Source of the DNA: a virus
Strand: one strand, 5' to 3'
Length of the DNA stretch: 31,185 nucleotides
IMG/VR virus record: IMGVR_UViG_3300034068_000633
Location: 1 to 31,185 of that record
Shown piece after piece: positions 1,907 through 22,814 of the stretch (its first letter is position 1; the number at the start of each line of letters is the position of its first letter). Below the pieces are notes generated by a model that was not told the origin of the DNA, ran no database searches, and worked only from the letters and a program-made list of their open reading frames with translations. Both the position numbers and the translations under genes were made by a program.

Positions 1907-2308
1907 ATGGAAAAAATATTATATATTGTTAGAGGTGTGCCTGGATCAGGTAAATCTACGTTTGCTAAATCATTAGGTGGTGCTCATTTTGAGACTGATA
2001 TGTTCTTTATGGATAATGGTGAATATAAATTTGACTTCACCAAAATAAAGGAAGCACATAAGTGGTGTCAAGATAGTGTTAATACTGCGATGATATTAAA
2101 TCATACCGCAAATATTAATAACGTAATTGTTGTTTCAAACACATTTACTCAAGAATGGGAAATGAAACCGTATTTTGATATGGCGGAAATATTTGATTAT
2201 AAAGTGTTTTGTTTGATTGTTGAGAATAGACATGGTGGGATTAATCAACACGGAGTCCCTGAAGATAAGATACAGTTAATGAAAGATAGATTTGAAATTA
2301 AAATTTAA
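1907..2308 (+). CDS. P-loop kinase, AAA_33 / N4BP2L1-like (putative polynucleotide 5'-kinase)
   Basis: 133 residues. The Walker A motif GVPGSGKST is at residues 10-18. The rest follows the NEDD4-binding-protein-2-like kinase pattern: an acidic ETD segment near residue 30, a helix with EAHKWCQ, VSNTFTQEWEMKPY near residues 83-96 (lid/substrate region), and the C-terminal HGVPEDKIQLMKDRFE. This family is related to the kinase domain of T4 polynucleotide kinase, which phosphorylates 5'-OH ends of DNA or RNA. The next gene is a metallophosphoesterase and an RNA ligase follows 2.7 kb later, which favours a nucleic-acid end-healing role. The exact substrate (RNA, DNA or a nucleotide) cannot be told from sequence. 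Confidence 0.75.
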   Translation: MEKILYIVRGVPGSGKSTFAKSLGGAHFETDMFFMDNGEYKFDFTKIKEAHKWCQDSVNTAMILNHTANINNVIVVSNTFTQEWEMKPYFDMAEIFDYKVFCLIVENRHGGINQHGVPEDKIQLMKDRFEIKI

Positions 2309-2311
2309 GAA

Positions 2312-2965
2312 ATGAAATTTGATAAAATATTAACGACAGGTAGAGTGTGGGTCACATCAGATCCCCACTACAACCATAAAAACATTTGTAGAGGTGTAAC
2401 TGATTGGAGAACTACTGATGGGAAAGTGCCAGACCATAGTACAAGAAATTTCCCAACGTTAGAACTAATGAATAACGCATTGGTTGATAACATCAACTCT
2501 AAAGTTGGTCAAGACGACACTTTAATTATGTTGGGTGACGTTGCTTTTGGTGGTTTTGAGTTTATTAGAATCTTCTTGGACCGATTGGTATGTAAAAACA
2601 TTCACTTGGTTCTTGGTAATCACGATCACCATATCAAAAACAATAGAGATGGCATTAAAGATATGTTCTTATCTGTTAGTGATTACCTACAGGTTAACAT
2701 TGGTGGAGAAAACTTTGTGATGACTCACTATCCATTTGAAAGTTGGAATGGTCTTAATAAAGGGGTGGTTCACCTTCACGGACACGTTCACTTACCGGCA
2801 AGTAGAAAATGGGGTAAAGGTAAAAGATTGGACGTTGGTGTGGATGGAAACAACCTCCAACCATATAGTATTACCGAGATTGTACACATGATGGATAAAA
2901 GAAATATTGTCTCTGAGATGAACGATGATCACCATTTAGATGATATTGTTGGGGTTGTGGGTTAA
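2312..2965 (+). CDS. Calcineurin-like metallophosphoesterase
   Basis: 217 residues with all family motifs in order: SDPHYNHKN (about residue 16), LGDVAFGG, VLGNHDHH, MTHYPF and HLHGHVH. These provide the Asp, His and Asn ligands of a two-metal centre. Such enzymes cleave phosphomonoesters or phosphodiesters, including 2',3'-cyclic or 3'-phosphate RNA ends. It lies 3 nt after the P-loop kinase, so kinase plus phosphatase are co-transcribed, the same activity pair found fused in T4 Pnkp and bacterial Pnkp. The C-terminus (after about residue 195) is an Asp/His-rich tail. The phosphoesterase call is firm; the RNA-repair role is inference from neighbours. Confidence 0.9.
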   Translation: MKFDKILTTGRVWVTSDPHYNHKNICRGVTDWRTTDGKVPDHSTRNFPTLELMNNALVDNINSKVGQDDTLIMLGDVAFGGFEFIRIFLDRLVCKNIHLVLGNHDHHIKNNRDGIKDMFLSVSDYLQVNIGGENFVMTHYPFESWNGLNKGVVHLHGHVHLPASRKWGKGKRLDVGVDGNNLQPYSITEIVHMMDKRNIVSEMNDDHHLDDIVGVVG

Positions 2966-2980
2966 ATTACAACTCCAACA

Positions 2981-2988
2981 TATTTATA
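2981..2988 (+). promoter_or_regulatory. Putative phage late promoter TATTTATA
   Basis: TATTTATA lies 3 nt before the ATG at 2992. The same octamer (last base A or T) precedes eight other genes in this window on both strands, at 3-20 nt from the start codon. Confidence 0.6.
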
Positions 2989-2991
2989 TGT

Positions 2992-4227
2992 ATGAAGATT
3001 ATATTAACAGAAACACAATACAAAATACTTAACGAAGCGTTAGGGGTTCCTGAAGGTATTTTAGATACTGCATCAGATTTATATGAAATAGTTGAAAATT
3101 TAATTAAGGGAATTGATTATAAAAAAGACGAATATATTTTTAACCAAAGTGTTGATTTAACTATTTCGGATTATCAGATTGATTCACTTGATCTTCATGT
3201 TAATGTTGAGCATATTCCAGGTTATGATGGGAAGGCTGAACTTGCATCTATGGCTATGGGTCAAAATTTTAATTATAATAGAAAAATACAATTAAAAGTT
3301 CAGTTATTAGATACTGAAATAGAATTACATATAACATTTGTCGTTGGTAATGAATGGGAACCTGAAGATTTATATGAAAGATTTACACAAGATCGTGTTG
3401 AAACTGAATCCACTTTGGCTCATGAGTTAAAACATAAGTACGACAAACAGAAAAAACAATTTGATTTAATTGGTAAAGACGCTCAATACCAAACTTACTC
3501 TAAAGGAAATTTAAGGTTTGGAATACCTGAGATTGACCATAAGTTTATGAGGTACAATTATTTTATGCAAGTTGCCGAAAGTTTAGTTAGACCAACTGAA
3601 CTTGCGTCAAGAATGAGACAAAGGAAAATTTTAAAATCTAAGTTTTTAAATTTCCTTAAAGAAGACAGATCATTTAAAGAGATTTTAGAAATTAGGGATT
3701 ATAGTTTTGAAAAGTTAATTGATGGTTTAAAAGAACAAATGGATAGAGTGGATGCGTTAATTAAACATATTGGACAATATAATGAAAATTTAACTGAAGA
3801 CGAAAAGATTAAAATAACATTAAAATTAGTTTATGTGAACTTGGTGAATAATAACGTTGAGTTATTTGATCAAATGACATCAACACCTTTAGACAGATAT
3901 GGTATTAGGGCTTTATTTAATAATGCATTTGGTGGTGGATTACTTCCGCAAGATGAAGAAGAAAAAAACTTACAAAAAGTAAGACAAAAATTCATCAACT
4001 ATTTGACAAAGTATGATGATGATCCTATTATGTTCTTTAAAGATATATGTAAACAATTATCTGACGACGCAAACAAAATTATTAAAAAACTAGGTAAACT
4101 TTACGCAATGGCAGAAGACGATCAACCAATGAATGAATCTATAATCAATTGGGAACTTCATCAACAACTGATGGAAAAAAAATACGGTAAAAGAAAAATA
4201 GAAACCGAATTTAAATTCAAAAAATAG
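2992..4227 (+). CDS. Late protein with HExxH (metallopeptidase-like) motif
   Basis: 411 residues. An HELKH motif at 144-148, preceded by ESTLA, has the form of a gluzincin zinc-binding helix; PTELASR at 201-207 could supply the third ligand (Glu203). The N-terminus MKIILTETQYKILNE ends in an L-N-E that resembles the cleavable tag seen on other late proteins here. The C-terminal half is helical and charged and carries no recognised domain. It is driven by its own late-type promoter and does not overlap its neighbours, which suggests a virion or late accessory protein rather than part of the early cluster. Protease activity is inferred only from the zinc-type motif. Confidence 0.6.
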   Translation: MKIILTETQYKILNEALGVPEGILDTASDLYEIVENLIKGIDYKKDEYIFNQSVDLTISDYQIDSLDLHVNVEHIPGYDGKAELASMAMGQNFNYNRKIQLKVQLLDTEIELHITFVVGNEWEPEDLYERFTQDRVETESTLAHELKHKYDKQKKQFDLIGKDAQYQTYSKGNLRFGIPEIDHKFMRYNYFMQVAESLVRPTELASRMRQRKILKSKFLNFLKEDRSFKEILEIRDYSFEKLIDGLKEQMDRVDALIKHIGQYNENLTEDEKIKITLKLVYVNLVNNNVELFDQMTSTPLDRYGIRALFNNAFGGGLLPQDEEEKNLQKVRQKFINYLTKYDDDPIMFFKDICKQLSDDANKIIKKLGKLYAMAEDDQPMNESIINWELHQQLMEKKYGKRKIETEFKFKK

Positions 4228-4259
4228 TTTGTCAAATCCAAATTAATTTATTACCTTTG
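4228..4259 (+). promoter_or_regulatory. Bacteroidota-type promoter (TTTG-N20-TACCTTTG)
   Basis: TTTG at 4228-4231 and TACCTTTG at 4252-4259, spacing 20. The -7 box ends 5 nt before the ATG at 4265, again predicting a leaderless or near-leaderless mRNA. Confidence 0.8.
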
Positions 4260-4264
4260 TTTCT

Positions 4265-4498
4265 ATGTGGACAACTAAAGAAACTAAAAGGGAATATCGT
4301 GGTGTAATAATCACAAAGTTTGAAGGATCAAAAGTCAAAGATTATTTCAGACGTAGAGACCCGCGCACATTTCAGAAAGACGATAAGAGATTCACTAAGT
4401 GGCAATCATATGTTGTTAACATTAATGATGTTAAATATGACTTTGAAAAGTTGAAAGATGCAAAAGAATATGTTGATTCAATCTTAGATAAGAAATGA
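4265..4498 (+). CDS. Small hypothetical protein
   Basis: 77 residues, basic and unrecognised. The middle is Arg/Lys-rich (YFRRRDPRTFQKDDKRFTKW), followed by a short strand-helix end (AKEYVDSILDKK). It is the first gene after the host-type promoter. Its stop overlaps the next start by 4 nt (ATGA), indicating translational coupling. Confidence 0.7.
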   Translation: MWTTKETKREYRGVIITKFEGSKVKDYFRRRDPRTFQKDDKRFTKWQSYVVNINDVKYDFEKLKDAKEYVDSILDKK

Positions 4499-4677
4499 AA
4501 AAACCCTGTAAAGAATGTCCTCATACCATTCGTAACCGACATAATGATATGATTGTAGAGTTTGGTAAAAGAACGGGAAAGAAACATAATTGTCATATGA
4601 CGGAAGGAAAAAAAGATTTGTGGAATATAACTAATAAAAAATTGGAATGTTATGGATCAAAAGAAGAGAGAAACTAA
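4495..4677 (+). CDS. Small Cys/His protein, DUF6283-like
   Basis: 60 residues. The pattern PCKECPH near the N-terminus, HNCH in the middle and LECYGS near the end gives a likely metal-binding set of Cys and His residues. This spacing resembles the DUF6283 family seen in phages (CxxCP ... CH ... C); that assignment is from memory of the pattern and is tentative. It begins by ATGA overlap with the gene before and overlaps the next by 26 nt. Confidence 0.6.
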   Translation: MKKPCKECPHTIRNRHNDMIVEFGKRTGKKHNCHMTEGKKDLWNITNKKLECYGSKEERN

Positions 4678-5023
4678 ATTTGGAACTTATATAGAAATGG
4701 AAACAGAAACTAATGTAAAGAAAACCGGTGATAAGATCACAAGGTTTGTTGAAAGATTGAAAAAAATTGGAATTGAAGTTAAACTTTCAGGTAATTACCC
4801 GTGGGTTTATATTGATGAAATCTGTGGTATCAGAGTAAAAGAAAAGTTTGCGGGAAATCACGGATTTACTATAATTTTTCTTCCTGTGAGAAACGATACA
4901 CCACCATCTGATTTTACAGATATCAAAGAGACGTTCAAGTTAATTAGAAAATATAGTAGAGAGGCTCTTTTGATAAAAATGATGGAAGAGGATCAAAAAA
5001 ACGGATTGTATGATATTAATTAA
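4652..5023 (+). CDS. Hypothetical protein
   Basis: 123 residues with no recognised domain. The core ERLKKIGIEVKLSGNYPWVY and the following NHGFTIIFLP segment suggest a compact alpha/beta fold. The ATG at 4652 gives a 26-nt overlap with the previous gene; an internal ATG at 4697 would remove it and cannot be excluded. Next comes the RNA ligase after a 10-nt A-rich gap, in the same transcription unit. Confidence 0.65.
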   Translation: MDQKKRETKFGTYIEMETETNVKKTGDKITRFVERLKKIGIEVKLSGNYPWVYIDEICGIRVKEKFAGNHGFTIIFLPVRNDTPPSDFTDIKETFKLIRKYSREALLIKMMEEDQKNGLYDIN

Positions 5024-5033
5024 AAAATAAGAA

Positions 5034-6167
5034 ATGGAAAATTTAAATAGTGTATGTTATGTTGGAATAATCGGAGAGATTATACCAATAGAAGGTGCGG
5101 ATAACATTGAACTTGCATTGGTTGGTGGTTGGCAAGCCATTACTAAGAAAGGTGAATACAGTGTTGGTGATAAGGTTGTTGTTGCAACTACCGATGCGGT
5201 AATCCCCGTTGAATTATCTGATTTAATGGGTGTAACTAATTACCTAAGAAAAGGTCAAAGAGTTCGTACCGTTAAACTTCGTAAAGTTTACTCTGAGTGT
5301 TTAATTATGAGTAAGAATACTATTCCTGCTTTAAGAAAATACCCCACTCTTACAGAAGGAGAAGATTTAATGGAACTATTAGGTATCACCAAATACGAAC
5401 CACCAGTTAAGATGGTTGAGATGAGTGTTGGGGGTAGAAAATTCAAGTACCACCAAAACCCTAACTTCCACGTTTACTACAAATTCCCAAATATGAAAAA
5501 TGTACCGGATATGTTTAATGAGGACGATGAGGTATGTATTACTCGTAAATTACACGGGACCAATGCTCGTTACGGAATTGTAAGGAAGAAAAAACTTTCA
5601 TTCTTAGATAAGATTCGTGGATGGTTTGGTAATCAATGGATTGGATATGAATATGTTGTGGGTAGCCATAATGTAGAAAAAGGTTCTGATTCACAAGGAT
5701 TTTATGATAGAAATGTGTGGGAAGACATAGCAATAAAATACGATATTCGTAGAAAACTTTGGGATCACGTTAAAGATGTTTATTCACCTGATGGGATAGG
5801 TTCTGGTTTTATTATCTATGGTGAGATCTTCGGACACGGAATCCAAAAGAATTATGATTATGGTTTAACGGAGATTCGTTTTGCTGGTTTTGATGTTGAG
5901 GTTGATGGACATTATGAAGATAATTTAAGTCAAACAACACACTTCCAATGTTTAGAATTAGATGAGGTTGAAACATTATATTCAGGTCCTTGGTCAAAAG
6001 AAAAACAAGATAAATACGTGTTCGGTAACTATATTCAAGGGACTAAAGTTCCTCACGAAGGTGTTGTTGTTAAATCTTTGGATGGTAGTAGACACAAAAT
6101 TGCTAAAATCATTAACCCTGATTATTTGATAGCAAGTGAGAAAAATAATTACGGTGATTCACATTAA
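5034..6167 (+). CDS. RNA ligase, DRB0094/Rnl5 type with N-terminal OB domain
   Basis: 377 residues. Residues 1-110 form an OB-like domain (VCYVGIIGEIIPIEGADNIEL ... GDKVVVATTDAVIP), as in Deinococcus DraRnl. The nucleotidyltransferase domain follows: motif I KLHGTN with the predicted AMP-accepting Lys172, a motif with YGEIFG near residue 262, motif IV EGVVVKS (342-348) and motif V around HKIAKIINPDYL. The family seals RNA 3'-OH/5'-phosphate ends, often within duplexes, through enzyme-AMP. Length and order match complete Rnl5 proteins, with no truncation. The kinase and phosphoesterase at 1907-2965 could prepare the ends it joins. Confidence 0.88.
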   Translation: MENLNSVCYVGIIGEIIPIEGADNIELALVGGWQAITKKGEYSVGDKVVVATTDAVIPVELSDLMGVTNYLRKGQRVRTVKLRKVYSECLIMSKNTIPALRKYPTLTEGEDLMELLGITKYEPPVKMVEMSVGGRKFKYHQNPNFHVYYKFPNMKNVPDMFNEDDEVCITRKLHGTNARYGIVRKKKLSFLDKIRGWFGNQWIGYEYVVGSHNVEKGSDSQGFYDRNVWEDIAIKYDIRRKLWDHVKDVYSPDGIGSGFIIYGEIFGHGIQKNYDYGLTEIRFAGFDVEVDGHYEDNLSQTTHFQCLELDEVETLYSGPWSKEKQDKYVFGNYIQGTKVPHEGVVVKSLDGSRHKIAKIINPDYLIASEKNNYGDSH

Positions 6168-6218: not shown

Positions 6219-6389
6219 ATGGGACGATTAAAAAAATACAAAACGGAAGAGGAGAAAAAAGAGGCTCAAAAAAAATGGGCTAATCAGTATTACCATCGTA
6301 ACAAAGAACGAATAAATAAAATTGCTATGGAGAAATATTATGAACTACAAAAAAGTGTACGACCAGATAATCCTGAGGGCGAAGAGTGA
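6219..6389 (+). CDS. Small basic protein preceding the HNH endonuclease
   Basis: 56 residues, MGRLKKYKTEEEKKEAQKKW..., rich in Lys, Glu, Tyr and Asn, predicted almost entirely helical. Such basic leader segments often precede or fuse to phage homing endonucleases. It directly follows a late-type promoter and overlaps the HNH gene by 50 nt in another frame, so it is probably the first part of the same insertion. It could be a DNA-binding partner, or a former N-terminal domain separated by frameshift; the sequence does not decide. Confidence 0.6.
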   Translation: MGRLKKYKTEEEKKEAQKKWANQYYHRNKERINKIAMEKYYELQKSVRPDNPEGEE

Positions 6390-7062
6390 AAATAGAATTA
6401 AAAATTGTGGGGTATACTATGAATCACACCACATAATCCCAAAATGTTTGGGTGGTGAAGGAAAAACTGTAGAGTGGAAAACACACCCAAACATTGTATT
6501 ATTAACAGCAAAGGAACATTTTATTGCTCATTTATTACTTTGTGAGATACATCCTGATGAATACAAATTGAAATTTGCGTTATGGGGTATGTGTAACCAA
6601 GATAGGAATGGTATGAGATATAAAGTAAACTCAAGACAATACCAAAGGATCCGAAACGAGTTCTCAAAGTTAATCTCAAAAAAATACAAAGGTCGTCCTG
6701 CTCATAATAAAGGAAAACCAAATCCAAAAACCGCATTATCTAAAATAGGCATACCAAGACCAGATTTATCGGAAAGAAATAGGTTAAGAAAGGGAACACC
6801 TAAAAACATTCCTGAGGGATATGTAAGCCCTTTAAAAGGTGTAAAACAAAGTGATGATTTAATAAAAAAACGATCGGAGTCAAAAAAGAGAAATGGTAAA
6901 TGTGTTCTACAATTTGATTTAGATGGTAATTTTTTAAAAAAATATGATTGTATGACTGATGCCTTTAATTGGATGAAGGACAATAATATTAAAGGTGATA
7001 TTAAATCTAATTTATCAAATAAAACAAAAAAATCGGGCGGATTTATTTGGAAGTATGAATAA
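6340..7062 (+). CDS. HNH homing endonuclease with NUMOD1-type C-terminus
   Basis: 240 residues from the ATG at 6340 (an upstream in-frame TTG at 6322 would add six residues). The HNH core is ESHHIIPKCLGG (about residues 28-39), then NIVLLTAKEHFIAH with the conserved Asn and final His. A Lys/Gly/Pro-rich linker follows (KGRPAHNKGKPNPK), then a C-terminal DNA-binding segment VLQFDLDGNFLKKYD ... SGGFIWKYE of NUMOD1 type. The last part is shared with the GIY-YIG enzyme at 16872. These genes are selfish elements that cut unoccupied alleles. It sits between two early clusters and carries its own late-type promoter. Confidence 0.87.
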   Translation: MNYKKVYDQIILRAKSENRIKNCGVYYESHHIIPKCLGGEGKTVEWKTHPNIVLLTAKEHFIAHLLLCEIHPDEYKLKFALWGMCNQDRNGMRYKVNSRQYQRIRNEFSKLISKKYKGRPAHNKGKPNPKTALSKIGIPRPDLSERNRLRKGTPKNIPEGYVSPLKGVKQSDDLIKKRSESKKRNGKCVLQFDLDGNFLKKYDCMTDAFNWMKDNNIKGDIKSNLSNKTKKSGGFIWKYE

Positions 7063-8822: not shown

Positions 8823-10319
8823 ATGAAAGATAAAAAACTTATACTTGAGGAGTTAAATAGGATTAAAAACCTTATGGGTTACGATCGTTCTAAGACATTA
8901 AATGAACAAGAAGGTTATGAAGGTTATGCTGATATATTAAAAAGTTTAGATAGTGATTCCGGTACTAATATTTATGGGACTTCAGATGGTAAACCAAGAA
9001 GATTTAGGACACCAGATGGTGATATTTTTGATTCTGCCGTTGATAAAGGAAAAACACCTAAAGGTTCAAAATGGATTAATAAACCTGAAAAGGTTATTGA
9101 TGCGGTAAAAGATGTTGCGTCTAATAAAAACGTTCAAACTGCAACAAACACTGTTGGAGGAGGTAAAGTAGTAAAATCAGTCACAGGTATAGGAAAAAAT
9201 GCTGCGTCAAGTGCTGAAGTTGCAGGAGCCGAATCTGCGGTAGGTGCTGAAGTTGCGGGAGCGGAAGCTGCGGTAGGAGCGGAAGCTGCGGTAGGAGCAG
9301 AAGCTGCGGCGGTAGGTGCGGAAACTGCGGCGGTAGTAGGAGGAGCGGAAACCGCGGCAGTAGTAGGAGGAGCGGAAGCTGCGGCGGTGGTAGGAGGAGC
9401 GGAAGCTGCGGCGGTGGTAGGTACTGAGGTCGCGGTAGGGGCAGGAGCGGCCGCTGCGGTTGGTGGTGGTGAAGCGGCAGCGGCTGCGGCTACTTTTTTA
9501 GGTTTAGGTCCTGTTGGTTGGGCAATAATTGGTGTTGCGAGTATCGCGGCTTTAGGTGTTTGGGCGTACACAAAAGACGATAAAATGGGTATGGTTGAAA
9601 AATTATTTGATATTTGTCAATCAAGTAGTGACAAGGATAAGTGGAAAAGATATATGAGTGATACAGAGGTTAAAAAGAATTCAGGGATATTATATCATGC
9701 CATGGAAGGTTTGGGTACAGATGAAGAAGCGGTTTACGGTGTATTCAAATCATTTAAAAGTCCTGGTGATTTTTGTGCGGTAGGTGAAAAATATGAAAAT
9801 ACATTTGGAGAATCTTTGTTAGAGGCGTTAAATGGTGATTTTGATTATGGTTGGGAAGGCATTGCTGAACCATTAGTTGATATGACTAAAAAATACGCAC
9901 AAACTGAATCTGAAGAATATTGTAAAGATCACGTTGAAGAATGTGCTGAGAATTTAAAAAAATATTGTAAAAAAATACCTAACGATCCTAAATGTAACGT
10001 TTTACAATCAGAAGATTTATTAGTAAAGGCTAAAAAATGTGGTCATAAATCTGTGGAAGATTATAAAAACTCTGATTGGAAATGTGATCCAAGTTCATCA
10101 GGTGGTGGTAATGACGGGACAGGAAAAAGTGAGTATGTGAATTGTAATGGTGAATATCATAAAGGATGTAAAGGACCAAGAATAGTGCAATTACAAAAAT
10201 GTTTAGGTGTTGGTGTTGATGGTAAGTTCGGAGAAGAAACGGAAAAGGCATTAGAAGAAAAAACAAAGAACAAAACCATCAATGACGAAGATGTTAAGAA
10301 AATATGTGGTAAAAAGTAA
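8823..10319 (+). CDS. Late virion-type protein: Ala/Gly repeats, membrane segment, annexin-like module, peptidoglycan-binding domain
   Basis: 498 residues. The N-terminal tag MKDKKLILEELNRIKNLMGY leads to KTLNEQ (L-N-E at 26-28). Residues about 132-222 are Ala/Gly/Val repeats (AAVVGGAEA units) written in GC-rich codons. A hydrophobic segment at 227-250 (GPVGWAIIGVASIAALGVWAY) could span a membrane. Residues about 286-341 (AMEGLGTDEEAVY ... TFGESLLEALNGDFD) resemble an annexin repeat. The C-terminus (about 438-497) is a Cys-containing peptidoglycan-binding domain (IVQLQKCLGVGVDGKFGEETEKAL). This set fits a packaged protein that meets membrane and cell wall on infection, or a lysis protein. It is bounded by terminators on both sides. 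Confidence 0.7.
   Translation: MKDKKLILEELNRIKNLMGYDRSKTLNEQEGYEGYADILKSLDSDSGTNIYGTSDGKPRRFRTPDGDIFDSAVDKGKTPKGSKWINKPEKVIDAVKDVASNKNVQTATNTVGGGKVVKSVTGIGKNAASSAEVAGAESAVGAEVAGAEAAVGAEAAVGAEAAAVGAETAAVVGGAETAAVVGGAEAAAVVGGAEAAAVVGTEVAVGAGAAAAVGGGEAAAAAATFLGLGPVGWAIIGVASIAALGVWAYTKDDKMGMVEKLFDICQSSSDKDKWKRYMSDTEVKKNSGILYHAMEGLGTDEEAVYGVFKSFKSPGDFCAVGEKYENTFGESLLEALNGDFDYGWEGIAEPLVDMTKKYAQTESEEYCKDHVEECAENLKKYCKKIPNDPKCNVLQSEDLLVKAKKCGHKSVEDYKNSDWKCDPSSSGGGNDGTGKSEYVNCNGEYHKGCKGPRIVQLQKCLGVGVDGKFGEETEKALEEKTKNKTINDEDVKKICGKK
9217..9490 (+). repeat. GC-rich Ala/Val/Gly/Glu coding repeats
   Basis: Degenerate tandem units of 18 to 27 nt (for example GCGGCGGTGGTAGGAGGAGC followed by GGAAGCT) encode VGAEAA and AAVVGGAEA. 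The base composition is far more GC-rich than the flanking DNA. The variation in unit length suggests slippage or unequal recombination. Confidence 0.85.
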
Positions 10320-10769: not shown

Positions 10770-11354
10770 ATGAAAGTATTAGTTCTAGATAACGATGGTG
10801 TAATTTGTCTCTCCAACAATTGGGGTGGACGAACAAAGAAATGGGCGAAATATCGTTCAGCAAATCCTGATTCAAGTAAGGAACGTAAAGATGCTCCGGT
10901 ATCTGTAAGATTTGATGACTTTGATAAGAAAGCGGTTAAAATCCTTAATGAGATCCTTGAAGAGACAGGTGCTGAAATTGTTGTATCGTCTGATTGGAAA
11001 TTACACGCAACTCTTGAAGAACTTGGTGACTACTACGAAAGTCAGGGGATCATCAAACGACCAATTGCGGTAACTACTAATCTTGGTCAGTGTACTTGGT
11101 ATAACGATCAAGTTTGGGTTTGGTCACCAAGATGGAATTTGGAAATGACTCGTGTTATTGAGATTACCCAATACCTACACGATCACCCTGAAGTAACACA
11201 TTGGGTTGCGGTTGACGATCTTAATATGGGTAAGAATGGTGAGGACTGGAAAAACTGGGGAATTGATAATTTTGTTTTAACTCCAAAAAGTAGTGAAGGT
11301 ATTAAACAATTAAGTATTAAAGAAAAAATATTAAAGTTTCTGAGAGATGAGTAA
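10770..11354 (+). CDS. HAD-family phosphatase, SAK RNA-repair type
   Basis: 194 residues. HAD motif I is LDNDGVI (nucleophile Asp7, then Asp9), motif II is IVVSSDWK, and the late acidic motif is WVAVDDLN. The IVVSSDW spacing, long loops and final NFVLTPKSSEGI match the HAD domain first described in Swiss-Army-Knife (SAK) RNA repair proteins, which is predicted to act on 2' or 3' phosphates at RNA ends. The HAD call is firm and the SAK subtype is a judgement from pattern. It overlaps the next gene by 8 nt. Together with the kinase, ligase and CCA-type enzyme it supports an RNA-repair theme. Confidence 0.75.
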   Translation: MKVLVLDNDGVICLSNNWGGRTKKWAKYRSANPDSSKERKDAPVSVRFDDFDKKAVKILNEILEETGAEIVVSSDWKLHATLEELGDYYESQGIIKRPIAVTTNLGQCTWYNDQVWVWSPRWNLEMTRVIEITQYLHDHPEVTHWVAVDDLNMGKNGEDWKNWGIDNFVLTPKSSEGIKQLSIKEKILKFLRDE

Positions 11355-13130: not shown

Positions 13131-13394
13131 ATGAAAAAAGTTTTTTTAGCAATTTTAATGGGTGTTATGATAACATCTTGTACAGAAAATTCAAGAGTTA
13201 GAAACTTTGGAGGGGATGGAACCCTTAGATTACCAAAAGGACAAAAGTTGGTTAATATTACTTGGAAAGAAACTCAGCTTTGGTATTTAACAAGACCAAT
13301 GACATCAAAGGACTCTTGTCAAACATATACATTTCAGGAAGAATCGTCTTTGGGTTTGATAGAAGGAACGTACACAATAATTGAAACTAAGTAA
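13131..13394 (+). CDS. Phage-encoded lipoprotein
   Basis: 87 residues with signal peptide MKKVFLAILMGVMITSC (Cys17 in the lipobox). The mature domain has LPKGQKLVNITWKETQLWYL and TYTFQEESSLGLIEGTYTI, a small beta domain that I have seen in many phage proteins without known function. It is paired with the lipoprotein before it. A role at the host surface (exclusion or membrane modification) is plausible but not shown. Confidence 0.72.
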   Translation: MKKVFLAILMGVMITSCTENSRVRNFGGDGTLRLPKGQKLVNITWKETQLWYLTRPMTSKDSCQTYTFQEESSLGLIEGTYTIIETK

Positions 13395-13395
13395 T

Positions 13396-14130
13396 ATGAG
13401 TTTATTTAAAATTTATGAGGTAGGTGGAAAAGTTAGAGATGAGATCTTAGGTCTTCAATCTAAAGACGTTGACTATGTTGCGGTTCCAAGTGATACGTTA
13501 TTGGAAAAGTACAAAAGTGCTCATGAAATGTTTGTTATTTTGGAGACATTCCTTACTAATGAAAAGTTTGAGATATTTCTTTCAACTCCTGATTGTTTCA
13601 CTGTTAGAGCTAAGTTCCCTAAGGATCACAAATATCAAGGTGTTGCAGACTTTGTAATGGCTCGTAAAGAGATTGGGTATGTGGAAGGTACAAGAACACC
13701 TATCGTTGTTCCAGGAACCCTTAAAGATGATTTGGAACGTAGGGATTTCACTGTTAACGCAATGGCAAAAGATGATGATGGTGAGATTATAGATTTGTTT
13801 GATGGAATGAAGGATTTAGGGAAGATGGTTTTAAGTACACCACTACCAACAAAACAAACATTTGATGATGATCCACTTCGTGTCTTAAGAGCAATTAGAT
13901 TTGCAATCACAAAAGGGTTTAGTTTGAAACACTTGGATTACTACATCAACAACTACAATTACGAAACAAAGATGAAGGTTGTTTCTTCTGAAAGAATCCG
14001 TGAGGAGTTGTTGAAATGTTTCAAACACGACACCATGTTGACTTTGGATATGTTAAACGATTACCCAACGTTAAAGAGATATATTTTTGAAAACAAATTA
14101 ATGTGGTTAAAACCCACAATGGAAATTTAA
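13396..14130 (+). CDS. Class II CCA-adding enzyme / poly(A)-polymerase-type nucleotidyltransferase
   Basis: 244 residues from the ATG at 13396. The head-domain motifs of the family are all present: VGGKVRDEILG (residues 9-19), KDVDYV with catalytic Asp24 and Asp26, RRDFTVNAMA, IIDLFDGMKDL and DDPLRVLRAIRFA. The C-terminal body/tail domains of cellular enzymes (about 400 residues) are missing, so this is a compact phage form. The family adds CCA or A residues to tRNA or other RNA 3' ends. It would restore tRNA 3' ends after damage, in line with the RNA ligase and end-processing enzymes in this window. Confidence 0.88.
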   Translation: MSLFKIYEVGGKVRDEILGLQSKDVDYVAVPSDTLLEKYKSAHEMFVILETFLTNEKFEIFLSTPDCFTVRAKFPKDHKYQGVADFVMARKEIGYVEGTRTPIVVPGTLKDDLERRDFTVNAMAKDDDGEIIDLFDGMKDLGKMVLSTPLPTKQTFDDDPLRVLRAIRFAITKGFSLKHLDYYINNYNYETKMKVVSSERIREELLKCFKHDTMLTLDMLNDYPTLKRYIFENKLMWLKPTMEI

Positions 14131-16871: not shown

Positions 16872-17615
16872 ATGTATCATTATGTTTATAAATTAGAATT
16901 ACCGAAAACAAAAGAATTTTATTTTGGTAGTAGAACATCTAAAGTTGAACCAACTAAAGATGTTTATTATATGGGGTCTATGAGGTCTTGGAAAACAGAT
17001 AAAAAAAAATTAATTAAAACTATTATTAAATGTGATTTTATTAATAGAGAAGATTGTATTAGATATGAACGAGAGTTAATCATTGAACATATTTCCGATA
17101 AATTAAACAGGAATGCCCATATTCCTGATGTTGGTTTTAAAACTGTTGGTTTGGGACAATATATGGGTGAAAATGGTAAAGTTTATAGAGTACCAAAAGA
17201 TGATGAGTTAGTTTTGAATGGGACATTAAAACCATTTTGGTACGGTAGGAAACATAATGAAGAGTCAAAAAAGAAAATGAGTCAATCAGCTCTTGGTAAA
17301 AAAATTACCGATGAAACAAAAAAGAAGATGAGTGAATTTTGGAAGGGTAAATTAAAGACCTCCGAAACAAAAACTAAAATGAGTGAATCCGCAAAGGGTA
17401 AAAATAATAATTATAAAAGATATTTAGAACGAACCGGATTACCTCACGCTAAATCTAAACCTGTTTTACAATTTTCATTAGACAATGAATTTATTAAAGA
17501 ATGGACGAATGCTTTAATTGCTTCAAAAGAATTAGAATTATCTTACAAAGCAATAAATAATTGTTTAAGGAAAGGATATAAAAAGTCACAAGGTTTTATT
17601 TGGAAATACAAATAA
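16872..17615 (+). CDS. GIY-YIG-type homing endonuclease with NUMOD3 and NUMOD1 motifs
   Basis: 247 residues. The N-terminal nuclease domain has YHYVYKLELPKTKEFYFGSRTSK (the variant Y-V-Y ... Y-F-G of GIY-YIG enzymes) and a later helix YERELIIEHI that could hold the metal-binding Glu. Residues about 128-185 carry NUMOD3-type repeats (GRKHNEESKKKMSQSALGK, ITDETKKKMSEFWKGK, TSETKTKMSESAKGK). The C-terminus KPVLQFSLDNEFIKEW ... KSQGFIWKYK is NUMOD1-like and matches the end of the HNH enzyme at 6340. It sits immediately upstream of the repeat-array gene and has its own late-type promoter. Confidence 0.82.
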   Translation: MYHYVYKLELPKTKEFYFGSRTSKVEPTKDVYYMGSMRSWKTDKKKLIKTIIKCDFINREDCIRYERELIIEHISDKLNRNAHIPDVGFKTVGLGQYMGENGKVYRVPKDDELVLNGTLKPFWYGRKHNEESKKKMSQSALGKKITDETKKKMSEFWKGKLKTSETKTKMSESAKGKNNNYKRYLERTGLPHAKSKPVLQFSLDNEFIKEWTNALIASKELELSYKAINNCLRKGYKKSQGFIWKYK

Positions 17616-17630
17616 TTTTTAGTATCTTTA
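17599..17630 (+). promoter_or_regulatory. Bacteroidota-type promoter (TTTG-N20-TATCTTTA)
   Basis: TTTG at 17599-17602 and TATCTTTA at 17623-17630 (one mismatch to TAnnTTTG), spacing 20. It would start transcription about 38 nt before the ATG of the repeat-array gene. Confidence 0.6.
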
Positions 17631-17672
17631 AGAAATATAAATAAGTTTTATATTACCCAAATACATTAGAAA

Positions 17673-19571
17673 ATGGATTATAAAAAAATAAAAAGAAAAG
17701 AATGTTTATTTGAGATCATTAATGATGTCACAAATGGCATGGACATATACAACCATAATGGATCTTTTTGGTTAATTAATACCGAAGAATTAAAATGGAT
17801 GGTTGAATTTACTAAAGAAAAAACATTGTGGTATAACTACAATTTATTTAAATCTTTATTTAAGGGAATATCTTTAGATCTTATGGAAAATCAAGAATAT
17901 ATAACCGAATGGTTTGAGTCAAGATTTCTTAAACCTGAGGTGGTTGAAGATACCATTCAAAATGGGGTGAGACACACCAGCATAACAAATGCTAATGCTG
18001 AGAAAAGAGTTGAAGATACCATTCAAAATGGGGTGAAACACACCGAAGAAAGTAATCCGTGGATGTGCATGGGTGTTGAAGATACCATTCAAAATGGGGT
18101 GAAACACACCAATAAAGCGATTATCCGTATTAATAGTGTAGTTGAAGATACCATTCAAAATGGGGTAAAACACACCAATCGTACGTTGGAACCATTGAGC
18201 ATTATAGTTGAAGACACCATTCAAAATGGGGTTAGATACACCTCTACTTACTATTCTGAACAACCCGATTCAGTTGAAGATACCATTCAAAATGGGGTGA
18301 AACTCACCTCAGATATAGGGAAAGAGAACGCAACACGAGTTGAAGATACCATTCAAAATGGGGTGAAACACATCAAGGTAAATCATCATCCATTGCATCA
18401 GATAGTTGAAGACACCATTCAAAATGGGGTGAAACGCACCAGAAGGAACTTCAGGAAGAAACACCAAAGAGTTGAAGACACCATTCAAAATGGGGTGAAA
18501 CGCACATCTACGGTTGGTCATCTTCATCCGGAACTGGTTGGAGATATTATTCAAAATGGGGTGAAATACACCCGAATGATAGAGGAAGAAGATTCGTTTG
18601 AGGTTGAAGATGCCATTCAAAATGGGATAAAATACATCTCCAGTTCTGTTGGAAACTGTAAATATGATGTTGAAGATATCATTCAAAATGGGGTGAAAGA
18701 AACCATCCAAAATGGACAAAAGAACAAGTTGAGAGTTAAAGATACCATTCAAAATGGGGTGAAGGAAACTGAATTACATAAAGGGGTTAGACCATTGGCA
18801 GTTGAAGATACCATTCAAAATGGGGTGAAACGCACCAATCGTTCAAGTACAGATTGTCCCAAAAGCGTTGAAAATACCATTCAAAATGGGGTGAAGTACG
18901 CCTTTCCATTGTCAAAACTGACAGTCACTTCAGTTGAAGATACCATTCAAAATGGGGTTAAAGAGATCGGGGATATTTGTCTACGACGAAGCAGCGTTGT
19001 TAAAGACACCATTCAAAATGGAGTTAAACACACCGTTATTGGTGACATCTTTAATGATTGTGCGGTTGAAGATACCATTCAAAATGGGGTGAAACACATC
19101 GAGATTGGGTGGGCACAATATAATAAAGTTGAAGATGCTATTAAAAATGGGGTGAAAAACACCAGTCCAAAGATTTTTGAAAATAAGAAGCTTGTTGAAG
19201 ATACCATTCAAAATGGGGTGAAAAACACCCTGTTTTTGCCTGAATCGATTCAATCAGGAGTTGAAGATACCATTCAAAATGGGGTGAGAAATATTTCCCC
19301 AATGACACAATATATTGATTGGCAAGTTGAAGAAATAATCCAAAATGGGGTGAAAAACACCATAGATCTTAAACTTTCACGAGAAAACACTGTTAAAGAT
19401 ACCATTCAAAATGGGGTGAAACACACTGAAGATGGTGATTGGTTAGATGGTGATGAAAGGTTTAATGATATTATCCAAAATGGGGTGAAACACACTTTAG
19501 GGACAGAATATATGCAAAAATCAATGGTTAATGATGTTATTGAAAATGGTATGATTAATTTAAAGAAATAA
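17673..19571 (+). CDS. Repeat-array protein: unique N-terminal domain plus 25 V-E-D-T-I-Q-N-G-V-K-H-T units
   Basis: 632 residues. Residues 1-90 are a non-repetitive domain (IINDVTNGMDIYNHNGSFWLI; TLWYNYNLFKSLF; NQEYITEWFESRF) with no recognised function. From residue 91 to 630 the protein is 25 copies of a 12-residue unit, consensus VEDTIQNGVKHT, separated by 24 variable segments. Twenty-two of these are exactly 10 residues; one is 9 and one 11. The variable segments share no similarity and range from basic (RRNFRKKHQR) to acidic (RMIEEEDSFE). The frame is open throughout and the other two forward frames are stopped inside the repeat itself, so it is read as coding. The DNA has CRISPR-like 36/30 architecture (see the repeat entry). 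Function unknown; repeats may be structural with variable peptides displayed between them. Confidence 0.8.
   Translation: MDYKKIKRKECLFEIINDVTNGMDIYNHNGSFWLINTEELKWMVEFTKEKTLWYNYNLFKSLFKGISLDLMENQEYITEWFESRFLKPEVVEDTIQNGVRHTSITNANAEKRVEDTIQNGVKHTEESNPWMCMGVEDTIQNGVKHTNKAIIRINSVVEDTIQNGVKHTNRTLEPLSIIVEDTIQNGVRYTSTYYSEQPDSVEDTIQNGVKLTSDIGKENATRVEDTIQNGVKHIKVNHHPLHQIVEDTIQNGVKRTRRNFRKKHQRVEDTIQNGVKRTSTVGHLHPELVGDIIQNGVKYTRMIEEEDSFEVEDAIQNGIKYISSSVGNCKYDVEDIIQNGVKETIQNGQKNKLRVKDTIQNGVKETELHKGVRPLAVEDTIQNGVKRTNRSSTDCPKSVENTIQNGVKYAFPLSKLTVTSVEDTIQNGVKEIGDICLRRSSVVKDTIQNGVKHTVIGDIFNDCAVEDTIQNGVKHIEIGWAQYNKVEDAIKNGVKNTSPKIFENKKLVEDTIQNGVKNTLFLPESIQSGVEDTIQNGVRNISPMTQYIDWQVEEIIQNGVKNTIDLKLSRENTVKDTIQNGVKHTEDGDWLDGDERFNDIIQNGVKHTLGTEYMQKSMVNDVIENGMINLKK
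17943..19562 (+). repeat. CRISPR-like interspersed array: 25 x 36 nt with 24 x about 30 nt spacers, inside an ORF
   Basis: The 36-nt unit begins GTTGAAGATACC, has core CCATTCAAAATGG and ends GTGAAACACACC. Unit starts are 17943, 18009, 18075, 18141, 18207, 18273, 18339, 18405, 18471, 18537, 18603, 18669, 18735, 18801, 18867, 18933, 18999, 19065, 19128, 19194, 19260, 19326, 19392, 19461 and 19527. Period is 66 nt except 63 once (after 19065) and 69 once (after 19392). Units near the 5' end are almost identical; those toward the 3' end are degenerate, the last most of all. Synonymous sites are conserved (Asn AAT in 25/25, Gly GGG in 23/25). CCATT-CAA-AATGG can form a hairpin. Spacers are unrelated to each other. 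No cas gene is in the window, so this is called a repeat, not CRISPR. Confidence 0.9.
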
Positions 19572-19574
19572 AAA

Positions 19575-19961
19575 ATGATAAAAAGAGAACACTTACAATT
19601 TATTTACAATCGTCTTATTAACATATACGGTGAAAAACCTACCTATGACTACATGATCAGATTAAAAGTCATATTGGATGAAATTGAATTAAAGGAAATT
19701 AATGACAACATTAATAGGATGAAAGTTGAAAACAATGAAAGATCTGAAGTAATTGTTAAATGTGTTGACAATTGTACCTGTATGTCTGTTGACAAGTTCA
19801 ATGATGATACCGATTATTACATAACGTTTTATAAAACTTATGGGAATAAATCTTTGTGGAATAGAGTTAAGGAAGCTTGGAAAACCATTAGAGGTTTAAA
19901 CTCAGATTTAAATGAAATTGTTTTAACCAAAGAAGATTATCAAAAATTAAGAAATTTTTAA
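19575..19961 (+). CDS. Conserved phage hypothetical protein
   Basis: 128 residues. N-terminal helices (IYNRLINIYGEKPTYDYMIRL) then a domain CVDNCTCMSVDKFNDDTDYYITFY ... NRVKEAWKTIRGLNSDLNEIVLTKEDYQKL. The second half resembles a small domain found in many phage genomes without assigned function. It starts 3 nt after the repeat-array gene and may be co-transcribed with it. Confidence 0.65.
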   Translation: MIKREHLQFIYNRLINIYGEKPTYDYMIRLKVILDEIELKEINDNINRMKVENNERSEVIVKCVDNCTCMSVDKFNDDTDYYITFYKTYGNKSLWNRVKEAWKTIRGLNSDLNEIVLTKEDYQKLRNF

Positions 19962-19963
19962 AT

Positions 19964-20101
19964 ATGGTCAAAAAAACTTTTTATCAGATTAATAAATGGT
20001 TTGAATTAAATCTTGGTTGGTTTTTTGTGAACGGAATAAAACAAGAAGTTTGGGAAGAATACTTACGTAAAAAATATAAAAATGGAAATAGAAAAATTTG
20101 A
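19964..20101 (+). CDS. Very small hypothetical protein
   Basis: 45 residues: MVKKTFYQINKWFELNLGWFFVNG, then a basic tail (YLRKKYKNGNRKI). An aromatic-rich middle may associate with the membrane. It starts 2 nt after the previous stop and overlaps the next gene by 20 nt, the usual packing here. Confidence 0.5.
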   Translation: MVKKTFYQINKWFELNLGWFFVNGIKQEVWEEYLRKKYKNGNRKI

Positions 20102-20665: not shown

Positions 20666-21076
20666 ATGGACAAAGTTAGAATTTATTTAGATGATGTAAG
20701 AACGCCAGTGGATCCAAGTTGGATCGTTGTACGTTCTTATGATGAGTTCGTTCAAAAGATCAACTCAATTGGGTTGGAGAATATTGAATTAATATCGTTG
20801 GATCACGACTTAGGTGATAGTGCGATGGCGGAATGGCACTACGGTGTTGTGAAAAACTACATAATCAATTACGATAACATCACTGAGAAAACTGGTATGG
20901 ATTGCACCAAATGGTTGGTTAACCAATGGTTGGATGGTAAACCTGTAGTAGAAGTTGTGATCCACTCTGCAAATGCCGTAGGTAGCGGTAATATGATGGG
21001 ATACATCAACAATTACAGACACTTGAATAGAATGCCTCAGAATTGTGTGAGAGTTCATATAGAACACACCGTATAA
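20666..21076 (+). CDS. Cyclic-phosphate-processing receiver-like (cREC) protein
   Basis: 136 residues. IYLDDVRTP (Asp9-Asp10), a VRSYDEF segment, LISLDHDLGD and VVIHSANAVGSGNM match the cREC family, a receiver-like fold in which the acidic residues and the HSAN motif replace the phospho-acceptor site. The family was named for predicted processing of cyclic-phosphate RNA or nucleotide ends in RNA repair and conflict systems. The assignment is from motif recall. The gene has its own host-type promoter with leaderless geometry. Confidence 0.7.
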   Translation: MDKVRIYLDDVRTPVDPSWIVVRSYDEFVQKINSIGLENIELISLDHDLGDSAMAEWHYGVVKNYIINYDNITEKTGMDCTKWLVNQWLDGKPVVEVVIHSANAVGSGNMMGYINNYRHLNRMPQNCVRVHIEHTV

Positions 21077-21761: not shown

Positions 21762-22814
21762 ATGAACAACCTAGATAAATCATACCAATCACTCCTTCAA
21801 GACATTCTTGATAACGGAGTAAAAAAAGAAACTAGAAACGGAGGAACATTATCTGTATTCGGTAGACAGATTCGTCATAATATGAAAGATGGATTTCCAC
21901 TTCTTACAACCAAGAAGATGGCTTGGAAAACTATGGTAACTGAATTACTATGGTTTTTAAGAGGTGATACCAACATCAAATACCTTGTTGATAATGATTG
22001 TCATATTTGGGATGGTGATGCTTATAAGAGATATGTTGATAGTGATGAAGTAAGATGGCCAAAGAGTAAAGAAGATTTTATTGAACATATCAAAACAGAT
22101 GATGAGTTTGCTAGAAAGTGGGGTGATTTAGGTCCTGTGTATGGTAAGCAATGGAGAAGTTGGCATACAGGTTGGGATGTAGTTGAAGATAAGAGTAAAG
22201 AGGCAGGTGTAAGAAGGATTGAGTACGGAATTGACCAAATCGCAAACCTAATCCGTGACCTTAAAACAAACCCAGACTCAAGACGATTGATGGTTAATGC
22301 TTATAATATTGGAGAACTGGACACGATGGTGCTTCCACCTTGTCATTATGGATTTCAATGTTATACAAGAGAGTTGAGTTTGGAGGAAAGATATGAGTTG
22401 ATGAAAAAATTAGATAACTGGGTGTCAGTTCATTACAAAGAACCTAAAACAATGGAATATATGGATAAACATAATATTCCAACCAGAGCAATCTCTTTAA
22501 TGTGGGTCCAACGCAGTGTCGATTCGGCACTTGGATGGCCGTATAACGTCAGCTCATATTCTTTGTTACTTATGATGTTGGCAAAACAAGTCAATATGGT
22601 TCCTGATGAGGTTATTTGTAGTTTAGGTGATTGTCATATCTACTTAAATCATATAGATGGTGTTAAAGAACAATTAACAAGGGAGTCATATCCATTACCG
22701 AATGTTAGATTATCTGAAAGGGCAGTAAATGATATTTCAGAATATACTTTGGATGATATTGTTTTAGAAAATTATCAATCACACCCAAAAATATATTTCC
22801 CGTTATCAAATTAA
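21762..22814 (+). CDS. thyA: Thymidylate synthase
   Basis: 350 residues, versus about 264 for E. coli ThyA. It converts dUMP to dTMP with methylene-tetrahydrofolate and raises the dTTP pool for phage DNA. Visible: FGRQIRHNMKDGFPLLTTKK near the N-terminus, WGDLGPVYGKQWRSW, the active site LPPCHYGFQ with Cys194, and the C-terminal LGDCHIYLNHIDGVKEQL. The extra length comes from insertions before residue 125, at about 135-160, and between the Cys loop and RSVDSALGWPYN (about 202-235, LEERYELMKKLDNWVSVHYKE). No key residue is missing, so it should be active. Confidence 0.95.
   Translation: MNNLDKSYQSLLQDILDNGVKKETRNGGTLSVFGRQIRHNMKDGFPLLTTKKMAWKTMVTELLWFLRGDTNIKYLVDNDCHIWDGDAYKRYVDSDEVRWPKSKEDFIEHIKTDDEFARKWGDLGPVYGKQWRSWHTGWDVVEDKSKEAGVRRIEYGIDQIANLIRDLKTNPDSRRLMVNAYNIGELDTMVLPPCHYGFQCYTRELSLEERYELMKKLDNWVSVHYKEPKTMEYMDKHNIPTRAISLMWVQRSVDSALGWPYNVSSYSLLLMMLAKQVNMVPDEVICSLGDCHIYLNHIDGVKEQLTRESYPLPNVRLSERAVNDISEYTLDDIVLENYQSHPKIYFPLSN

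Follow-up and report, generated by a model that had tools for sequence, protein, structure and literature searches.

A protein-coding array with the layout of a CRISPR array in a gene family of uncultured phages

Several described systems each resemble in part the gene examined here, which carries a CRISPR-like array and lies in a 31,185-nucleotide (nt) stretch of viral DNA (IMG/VR record IMGVR_UViG_3300034068_000633, positions 1 to 31,185; hereafter the window). In type VI-B arrays of clustered regularly interspaced short palindromic repeats (CRISPR), 36-nt repeats alternate with 30-nt spacers that are nearly all different, and one end of the array is fresh while the other is degenerate. RNA-based anti-CRISPRs are phage-borne mimics of CRISPR repeats. 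Cyanobactin-type multi-core precursors of ribosomally synthesized and post-translationally modified peptides (RiPPs) join a conserved N-terminal part to alternating constant and hypervariable short peptides, and diversity-generating retroelements give rise to hypervariable segments in phage proteins. False CRISPRs are also predicted within coding tandem repeats; the element predicted in Staphylococcus aureus sdrC is a tandem repeat according to PMC5294841. The phage gene works like a CRISPR array in its layout and turnover, yet it is not a CRISPR array.

The encoded protein consists of an N-terminal domain of ~90 residues followed by 25 units, each a constant block of 12 residues and a variable segment of 10, with unit starts at 17943, 18009 and so on to 19527 (Table 1). 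A first, sequence-only reading had described 36-nt units alternating with 30-nt segments in frame within a 632-codon gene, and this description was borne out: 22 of the 24 spacers measure 30 nt, one measures 27 nt and one 33 nt, and 90 codons precede the first unit in the same frame. The spacers are mutually unrelated, as it had stated, since adjacent 30-nt pairs differ at 21.6 of 30 positions compared with 21.7 between arrays (280 pairs, 69 arrays). The near constancy of the 36-nt units holds overall, with the qualifications that units decay toward the C-terminus, codon 11 is variable and the spacer of unit 12 is part repeat-like; an entry at 18693 in the repeat scan falls within this spacer. 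A degenerate repeat pattern gave 13 matches in the window and 0 in 100 shuffles. The gene is no accident of a single contig: compared with the window, the 18 IMG/VR contigs that carry it, which may share samples, show just 3 variable nucleotide sites altogether, each within the last two units.

Table 1. Features of the array gene and of its surroundings in the window
Feature	Position	Strand	Basis or remark
Array gene, 632 codons and stop	17673..19571	+	same open reading frame in 18 IMG/VR contigs
N-terminal domain, 90 codons	17673..17942	+	AlphaFold2 model, family alignment
Array: constant 36-nt block VEDTIQNGVKHT in 25 copies, with 24 variable segments between them	17943..19571	+	
N-proximal array part, units 1-11, differs most from relative L027	17943..18668	+	comparison with L027
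Distal array part, units 12-25, spacers in same order as L027	18669..19571	+	comparison with L027 and L028
Unit 12 spacer IQNGQKNKLR, itself part repeat-like	18705..18734	+	
Unit 14 repeat, exact switch point of L028 to 99.9% identity with the window	18801..18836	+	
RNA-repair type genes (AAA_33, RNA ligase, HAD_SAK_2, CCA-adding head, cREC)	1907-6167, 10770-11354, 13381-14130, 20666-21076		
Homing-endonuclease-like genes with NUMOD motifs	16872-17615, 6322-7062		one directly upstream of the array gene

The array is protein-coding, because a frame-blind DNA scan of the fetched phage loci returned distinct repeat-to-repeat spacings that were all multiples of 3 (600/600), and 599 of 600 spacers lacked an in-frame stop, an absence that base composition predicts for 48% of 30-mers. 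Evidence of purifying selection on similar spacers came from substitution patterns: the ratio of nonsynonymous to synonymous rates (dN/dS) was 0.54 when similar spacers of different arrays were compared in 46 non-overlapping pairs, with values of 0.49 where both spacers were N-proximal (21 pairs) and 0.54 where both were distal (15 pairs). CRISPR arrays are non-coding and their spacer lengths are independent of frame. The phage array has the near-identical direct repeats with unique, uniform spacers that characterize the CRISPR layout, but departs from the non-coding, frame-independent state on all three counts (600/600, 599/600 and dN/dS 0.54); it is therefore not a member of the CRISPR arrays.

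Set beside type VI-B arrays, the phage array has the same 36-nt repeat and 30-nt spacer, nearly all-different spacers, fresh and degenerate ends and, in the case of Flavobacterium columnare, a likeness at 20 of the first 24 positions on the complementary strand. It differs in being kept in a reading frame, in the purifying selection on its spacer peptides and in its fusion to a protein domain; it also has neither the CRISPR RNA (crRNA) fold nor the CAAC end, its polarity is inverted by our own reading, and no protospacer was found. The appearance of repeats and spacers inside an open reading frame (ORF) is common to sdrC, whereas in the phage array the spacers show no kinship and conservation of the block across phages extends to its DNA. 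Like the RNA-based anti-CRISPRs, the phage DNA resembles a CRISPR repeat, but in many copies, within coding sequence and on the strand opposite to the VI-B crRNA. From RiPP precursors the phage gene differs in that no maturation enzyme was recognised among the window proteins scanned, its N-terminal domain of ~88 residues is folded and it has 25 cassettes.

The gene belongs to a family. IMG/VR searches with the N-terminal domain led to 57 loci, and those with the degenerate 36-nt block to at least 119 stretches. The family as collected comprises 104 distinct ORFs with 945 units, and 69 independent arrays once near copies are removed; the ORFs were chosen by motif-spacing or N-terminal-motif rules, and a later profile found at least 3 units in 101 of them and none in one. 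The distance from unit to unit is exactly 22 residues in 621 of 842 cases. Family contigs reach 272 kb, some with several N-terminal domains or arrays, and relatives differ among themselves in unit content. The family includes members without arrays: L207, L155, L089, L105 and L141 encode domains related to the N-terminal one but have few units or lack them, and in some of them one degenerate motif occurs, for example ESVLRNGVKKT. A segment resembling PFF-QD-Y recurs right behind the N-terminal domain in the otherwise different arrays L053, L111, L157, L182, L048 and L049, which suggests exchange of junction units.

A scan of cellular genome contigs by DNA pattern for the block gave 17 stretches with one match each and no array. 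The whole protein matched 49 records of a phage collection weakly (identity below 60%), many of them in tape measure proteins; we did not accept these as kin and read them as coiled or repetitive resemblance. Because these matches were weak and the start of the gene of L101 matched nothing in the same collection, the family is known only from uncultured phages. These appear to be mostly freshwater phages. Against PHROGs the whole protein matched families of unknown function, the best being phrog_3806 (E 2.5e-5, over the array). The peptides VEDTIQNG, IQNGVK and DTIQNGVK were not found in the open-access papers searched, and a search for coding CRISPR-like arrays and hypervariable phage repeat proteins, judged by listings alone, returned nothing alike. 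With moderate confidence we consider the array gene to represent a new phage gene family.

The constant block behaves as a DNA module. Its consensus is GTT GAA GAY ACC ATT CAA AAT GGG GTG AAA, a variable codon 11, and ACC. Modal codons 1-9 are alike (codon 3 being GAT or GAC) in 36 of 56 independent arrays of at least 6 units, all codons but 11 are alike in 26 of the 56, and single codons agree in 46-56. The block DNA is thus nearly alike, while aligned N-terminal domains are 43-66% identical to that of the window (32 sequences). Since the stretches found by pattern had been selected by DNA, statements on codon bias rest on 17 arrays found via the N-terminal protein. In these, ACC encodes 92% of Thr (codon 4), GGG 63% of Gly and GTG 56% of Val within the block, compared with 14%, 10% and 11% of the respective amino acids in other phage genes. 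At the level of nucleotide sequence, this indicates that the block is conserved as DNA, rare codons included, across phages. The sense-strand fold of the block was no better than that of shuffles. The N-terminus of the phage thymidylate synthase, SLLQDILDNGVKKETRNGG (window 21762-21830), resembles the block at the protein level, and this likeness is probably a common helix-cap motif.

The arrays are also polar. From the N- to the C-terminal fifth of arrays of at least 8 units, mismatch to consensus was 3.0, 2.9, 3.5, 5.7 and 7.9 of 32 positions, and spacer sharing between arrays rose from 29% to 54%. The last units of family arrays diverge most from consensus and those near the N-terminus are freshest; distal units often retain I-x-N-G-V-K written in ordinary phage codons. 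Neighbouring repeats differ at 7.66 positions, lower than in permuted order (0 of 1000 permutations as low), unlike adjacent spacers, which are as different as random ones.

Comparison of relatives showed the turnover of units. One 5.2-kb stretch of the relative L027 matches the window at 99.8% identity, and other long stretches do so at 90-94%. The two have 14 spacers in common (of 18 in L027 and 24 in the window) with 1 difference in 423 nt, while 4 L027 spacers are absent from the window and 10 window spacers are absent from L027. Within units 1-11 some spacers are private to either array and one common spacer, EGSNPWMCMG, is relocated; further on, L027 is without window spacers 18-20. In a second relative, L028, identity with the window is 99.9% beginning exactly with the first base of unit 14, while the sequence to the left of this base differs, and the switch may well be a recombination junction. 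Mean spacer sharing falls from ~55% at an N-terminal DNA identity of at least 95% to at most 3% below 75%. Unlike the point mutations of diversity-generating retroelements, the differences concern whole segments, and no spacer variation was seen among the 18 contigs; a retroelement target was rejected on the near identity of spacers common to the window and L027 and the complete difference of the others. A Pfam scan of 31 window proteins recognised no reverse transcriptase, and no search was aimed at a template repeat.

The sequence-only reading had named spacers that align as slowly diverging duplicates as one observation that would reduce the locus to an ordinary repeat protein. Such relatives exist between arrays for a minority of spacers: for 132 of 414, another independent array contains a relative at no more than 9 differences, which in 49 cases is an identical copy, compared with 0 of 414 in a codon-shuffled null. 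This count re-uses sequences, whereas the dN/dS set uses non-overlapping pairs. Because of these close relatives, part of the spacer pool appears to be old and exchanged. Within arrays of at least 5 units, by contrast, only 4 of 3661 spacer pairs are duplicates.

AlphaFold2, supplied with a 33-sequence alignment, gave a confident fold for residues 1-88, arranged as helix, four strands, helix and helix, with a predicted local distance difference test (pLDDT) score of 75-96 by ten-residue block. Residues 89-190, which include five array units, all scored below 50 with no confident fold, and in this model the array tail is probably disordered. A fold search of the PDB with the N-terminal domain gave no match at E <= 0.001, and a second look there reached a best Z of 3.7, leaving room for a known fold. 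Three BFVD models, each of an uncharacterised protein from an uncultured phage, matched the domain at E <= 0.001. Neither Pfam nor PHROGs gave a match within the domain, and the domain alone against PHROGs gave a best E of 0.24 (that of the window). Dodecin (PF07311) was rejected: its whole-protein score of 34.5 exceeds the cut-off of 22.5, but no single stretch passes the threshold and the best covers 21 of 64 positions.

On balance we lean toward a translated modular peptide array, with a folded N-terminal domain, that is turned over by recombination at the block. The block would double as a protein motif, with I-x-N-G-V-K as its oldest core, and as a 36-bp stretch of homology at which units may be gained, lost, reordered and exchanged between arrays; because units would be exchanged there, blocks would be alike across phages and peptides would not. 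New units would arise mainly in the N-proximal half, and older units would decay toward the C-terminus while keeping the motif at the protein level. The tail would probably serve as a multivalent set of short linear motifs in the infected cell, in counter-defence or host takeover. The sequence-only reading had likewise proposed, as one of three hypotheses, a protein of decapeptides diversified by recombination; of the three it has the strongest support, from the coding nature of the array, the gain, loss and reordering of units and the purifying selection, and recombination is the step that we infer.

Several observations weigh against this preferred reading. The protein has not been detected to date. 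A recombination product has never been observed directly, and the sole exact junction, in L028, may be an assembly chimera, since its left arm covers no more than 390 nt at the end of a contig. Duplicated spacers would be expected from unequal crossing-over, and their rarity within arrays therefore calls for another source of segments or selection against redundancy. The 18 near-identical contigs have no spacer change, which speaks against rapid turnover in that population. In 20 of the 56 arrays one or more of codons 1-9 are off consensus. For repeats modelled from a 33-row alignment, a low pLDDT is a weak indication that the tail is disordered. Finally, the spacers have codon usage unlike that of the phage and a guanine-cytosine (GC) content of 38% versus 32%, which is unexpected from slow evolution within the gene and therefore suggested capture, as discussed below.

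The most serious rival is a CRISPR mimic acting at the RNA level. On this account the block resembles a VI-B repeat on the opposite strand, and messenger RNA with 25 stretches partly complementary to host crRNA repeats would soak these up or cause their misprocessing; in a variant, the minus strand would give decoy crRNAs. The frame would be kept for the protein's own use. The reverse complement of the block matches the VI-B repeat of F. columnare, as given in PMC5395568, at 25 of 36 positions in register, with 0 of 2,000,000 shuffles as good. Three Weeksellaceae VI-B repeats match at 22, 23 and 22 of 36 (0 of 1000 shuffles each), and eleven VI-B repeats beside Cas13b genes agree with the block at 20-24 of 36 positions, with register and orientation unchanged. 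The match is less good for the 37-nt repeat of L240 (19, equalled by 5 of 1000 shuffles), and the lone candidate in L258 does not match (15 of 36). An 8-repeat profile scored the block above all 2.38 million background 36-mers, but with a more diverse 11-repeat profile 5 of 2.35 million scored as high. Over 12 repeats, random synonymous codings of the block peptide were less VI-B-like (summed identity p 0.0005, duplex energy p 0.0075); the VI-B repeats are mutually related, so that these tests are not independent, and single tests vary, with identity p 0.057 for L255 and 0.089 for L257 and duplex p above 0.05 for 6 of 12.

These repeats came from searches for Cas13b, which was found in 12 of 320 genomes from the family to which G001 belongs and in 7 of 397 Flavobacteriaceae (6 over the cut-off). 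Of 18 Cas13b regions taken, L229, L243, L254 and L259 yielded no array; the 12-repeat set does not include L240, L258 and L241, the last of which is close to L235, and the 11-repeat profile omits L242 too. The VI-B arrays of L236, L237 and L242 have a common truncated repeat at one end, TTGTGAATACCCTTCAAATGCT. VI-B array patterns matched in 0 of 397 Flavobacteriaceae and 2 of 395 Bacteroidota genomes, the matches being single and chance-like.

The VI-B likeness is confined to the first 24 nt of the block, which match 20 of 24 positions in F. columnare VI-B, 19 in L237 and 14 in L257, as well as 16 in the 46-nt Flavobacterium psychrophilum repeat and 11 in F. columnare II-C. The last 12 nt mostly do not match (5 of 12 with F. 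columnare, p 0.16, and L237, p 0.30; 7 of 12 with L257, p 0.04). The likeness is highest in N-proximal units (7.8, 8.2, 4.4, -4.0 and -11.2 by array fifth). The minus-strand repeat folds no better than shuffles (z -0.42, compared with -2.53 for real VI-B), and it ends in CACC rather than CAAC, so that the VI-B hairpin with paired GTTG and CAAC ends is not present. PMC8092290 describes leader-distal motifs that are common to II-C and VI-B repeats of different species, and by our reading of it the fresh units lie at the VI-B leader-distal side. A phage-encoded anti-repeat outside arrays, similar to a trans-activating CRISPR RNA, was discarded: the best candidate, at 18 of 24, equalled the shuffled control, save for one truncated unit at a contig end. 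Rfam found nothing over window 17000-20000. Within this 31-kb fragment, a Pfam scan that covered part of the ORFs, 31 window proteins and the array gene, found no Cas family, and among 10 window proteins PADLOC reported a single match, weak and partial, to Cas8a (E 0.002, 15.8 bits).

The comparison with Bacteroidota CRISPR repeats that the sequence-only reading had proposed thus found a likeness beyond chance, which together with the common 36 + 30 geometry and a neighbourhood rich in RNA-repair genes makes a CRISPR-mimic role of the block possible. Its suggestion of RNA mimicry is weakened by several features that speak against a working crRNA. Because of the missing fold, the CACC end and the inverted polarity, we keep mimicry as a serious rival, unlikely as a full account, and not as our main reading. 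Marginally less doubtful, and equally tentative, is a dual-coded counter-defence locus, in which the block would have been kept or copied in a form resembling VI-B and partly II-C repeats, the messenger RNA would interfere with host CRISPR RNAs and the translated spacers would form an exchangeable peptide library. If true, this would be a CRISPR-style memory or library written in amino acids.

We give distinctly less credence to an array grown by capture, in which a host Cas1-Cas2 or similar integrase inserts ~30-bp fragments with duplication of the block, and frame-keeping, stop-free insertions survive. The geometry, the nearly all-different spacers and the N-to-C polarity fit this account, as does a private KLT repeat variant that is doubled in L027 beside MDIAYNMGDQ, a spacer absent from the window. 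The synonymous codon use of 324 single spacers fits random-frame DNA above phage genes (log2 likelihood -4784 versus -5039 over 3124 spacer codons), and dinucleotides at spacer codon junctions resemble phage DNA. Expectation-maximization on the reading frames of single spacers gave frame 0 a weight of 0.55 (phage model), between simulated capture (0.34) and coding (0.97). The overdispersion of purines expected of DNA captured from both strands is lacking, however. In simulations with 150 sets per source (phage or Bacteroidota DNA), 0 of 150 had a purine dispersion ratio as low as the 1.02 of the spacers; a GC ratio as small as that of the spacers arose in 2% and 7% of sets, and the spacers' A/C ratio was not unusual. 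By this composition, capture from both strands of genomic DNA is disfavoured, while single-frame sets may have purine ratios near 1 and one-strand capture is compatible with the purine data.

Searches for a source point the same way. A comparison with 1.27 Mb of phage DNA outside arrays yielded a best match of 19 nt, exact, and the excess over reversed controls was slight (34, 10, 5 and 1 spacers at 30, 32, 34 and 36 bits or more, versus 20, 4, 2 and 0); capture from neighbouring phage DNA was rejected on these values. Four spacer cores were found in IMG/VR only in contigs with their own array. The window array had only partial matches to phages and plasmids, which we read as AT-rich chance. 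Its 4 matches in 395 Bacteroidota genomes comprise three on or across repeats and one of 24 nt, exact and AT-rich, inside spacer 19, where chance is possible. The search of spacers against phage, plasmid and host genomes, another step proposed from the sequence, thus gave no convincing source, and of the idea of captured spacers under a coding constraint it is the constraint that stands.

An ordinary tandem-repeat gene, with a block conserved for structure, spacers as drifting linkers and a coincidental CRISPR likeness, would account for the distal persistence of the motif in phage-like codons and for spacers with gradually diverged or identical relatives in other arrays, but is very improbable given the conservation of rare-codon DNA across phages with very different N-terminal domains, the whole-spacer differences beside identical shared spacers, the purifying selection on similar spacers and a richness of spacers in His, Arg, Trp and Cys that exceeds phage proteins and is unlike usual linkers.

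The window encodes an RNA ligase, an AAA_33 kinase-like protein, a CCA-adding nucleotidyltransferase head domain, HAD_SAK_2, cREC, thymidylate synthase and a Clp-type protease. The RNA-repair genes among these would suit a phage that faces an RNA-cleaving defence. Among 69 array neighbourhoods, 18 contain a homologue of ORF 20348, 16 one of ThyA and 10 one of ORF 16222; the window's own relative is among those counted, and many loci are too short to show these genes. A homologue of the NUMOD gene upstream of the array lies near 3 of 69 independent arrays, again with the window's own relative included. Shine-Dalgarno-like sites precede 1 of 40 window genes, compared with a background of 9%, and such scarcity fits a Bacteroidota host. 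Two other phage proteins contain ordinary tandem repeats, one rich in Ala, Glu and Val (9211-9421) and one of Gly-Thr (1246-1322).

If the preferred reading of a translated, recombining peptide array is right, viruses have an array as orderly as CRISPR but expressed as protein, and phages trade 10-residue peptides from a common pool, with constant blocks that serve both as peptide motif and as recombination homology. The array would offer a direct way to study how a gene takes in unrelated segments that keep its frame, and its likeness to VI-B repeats makes new CRISPR interference, or the exaptation of a CRISPR array, testable. It suggests an unrecognised means by which viruses gather and exchange short peptides, and perhaps also disturb bacterial CRISPR.

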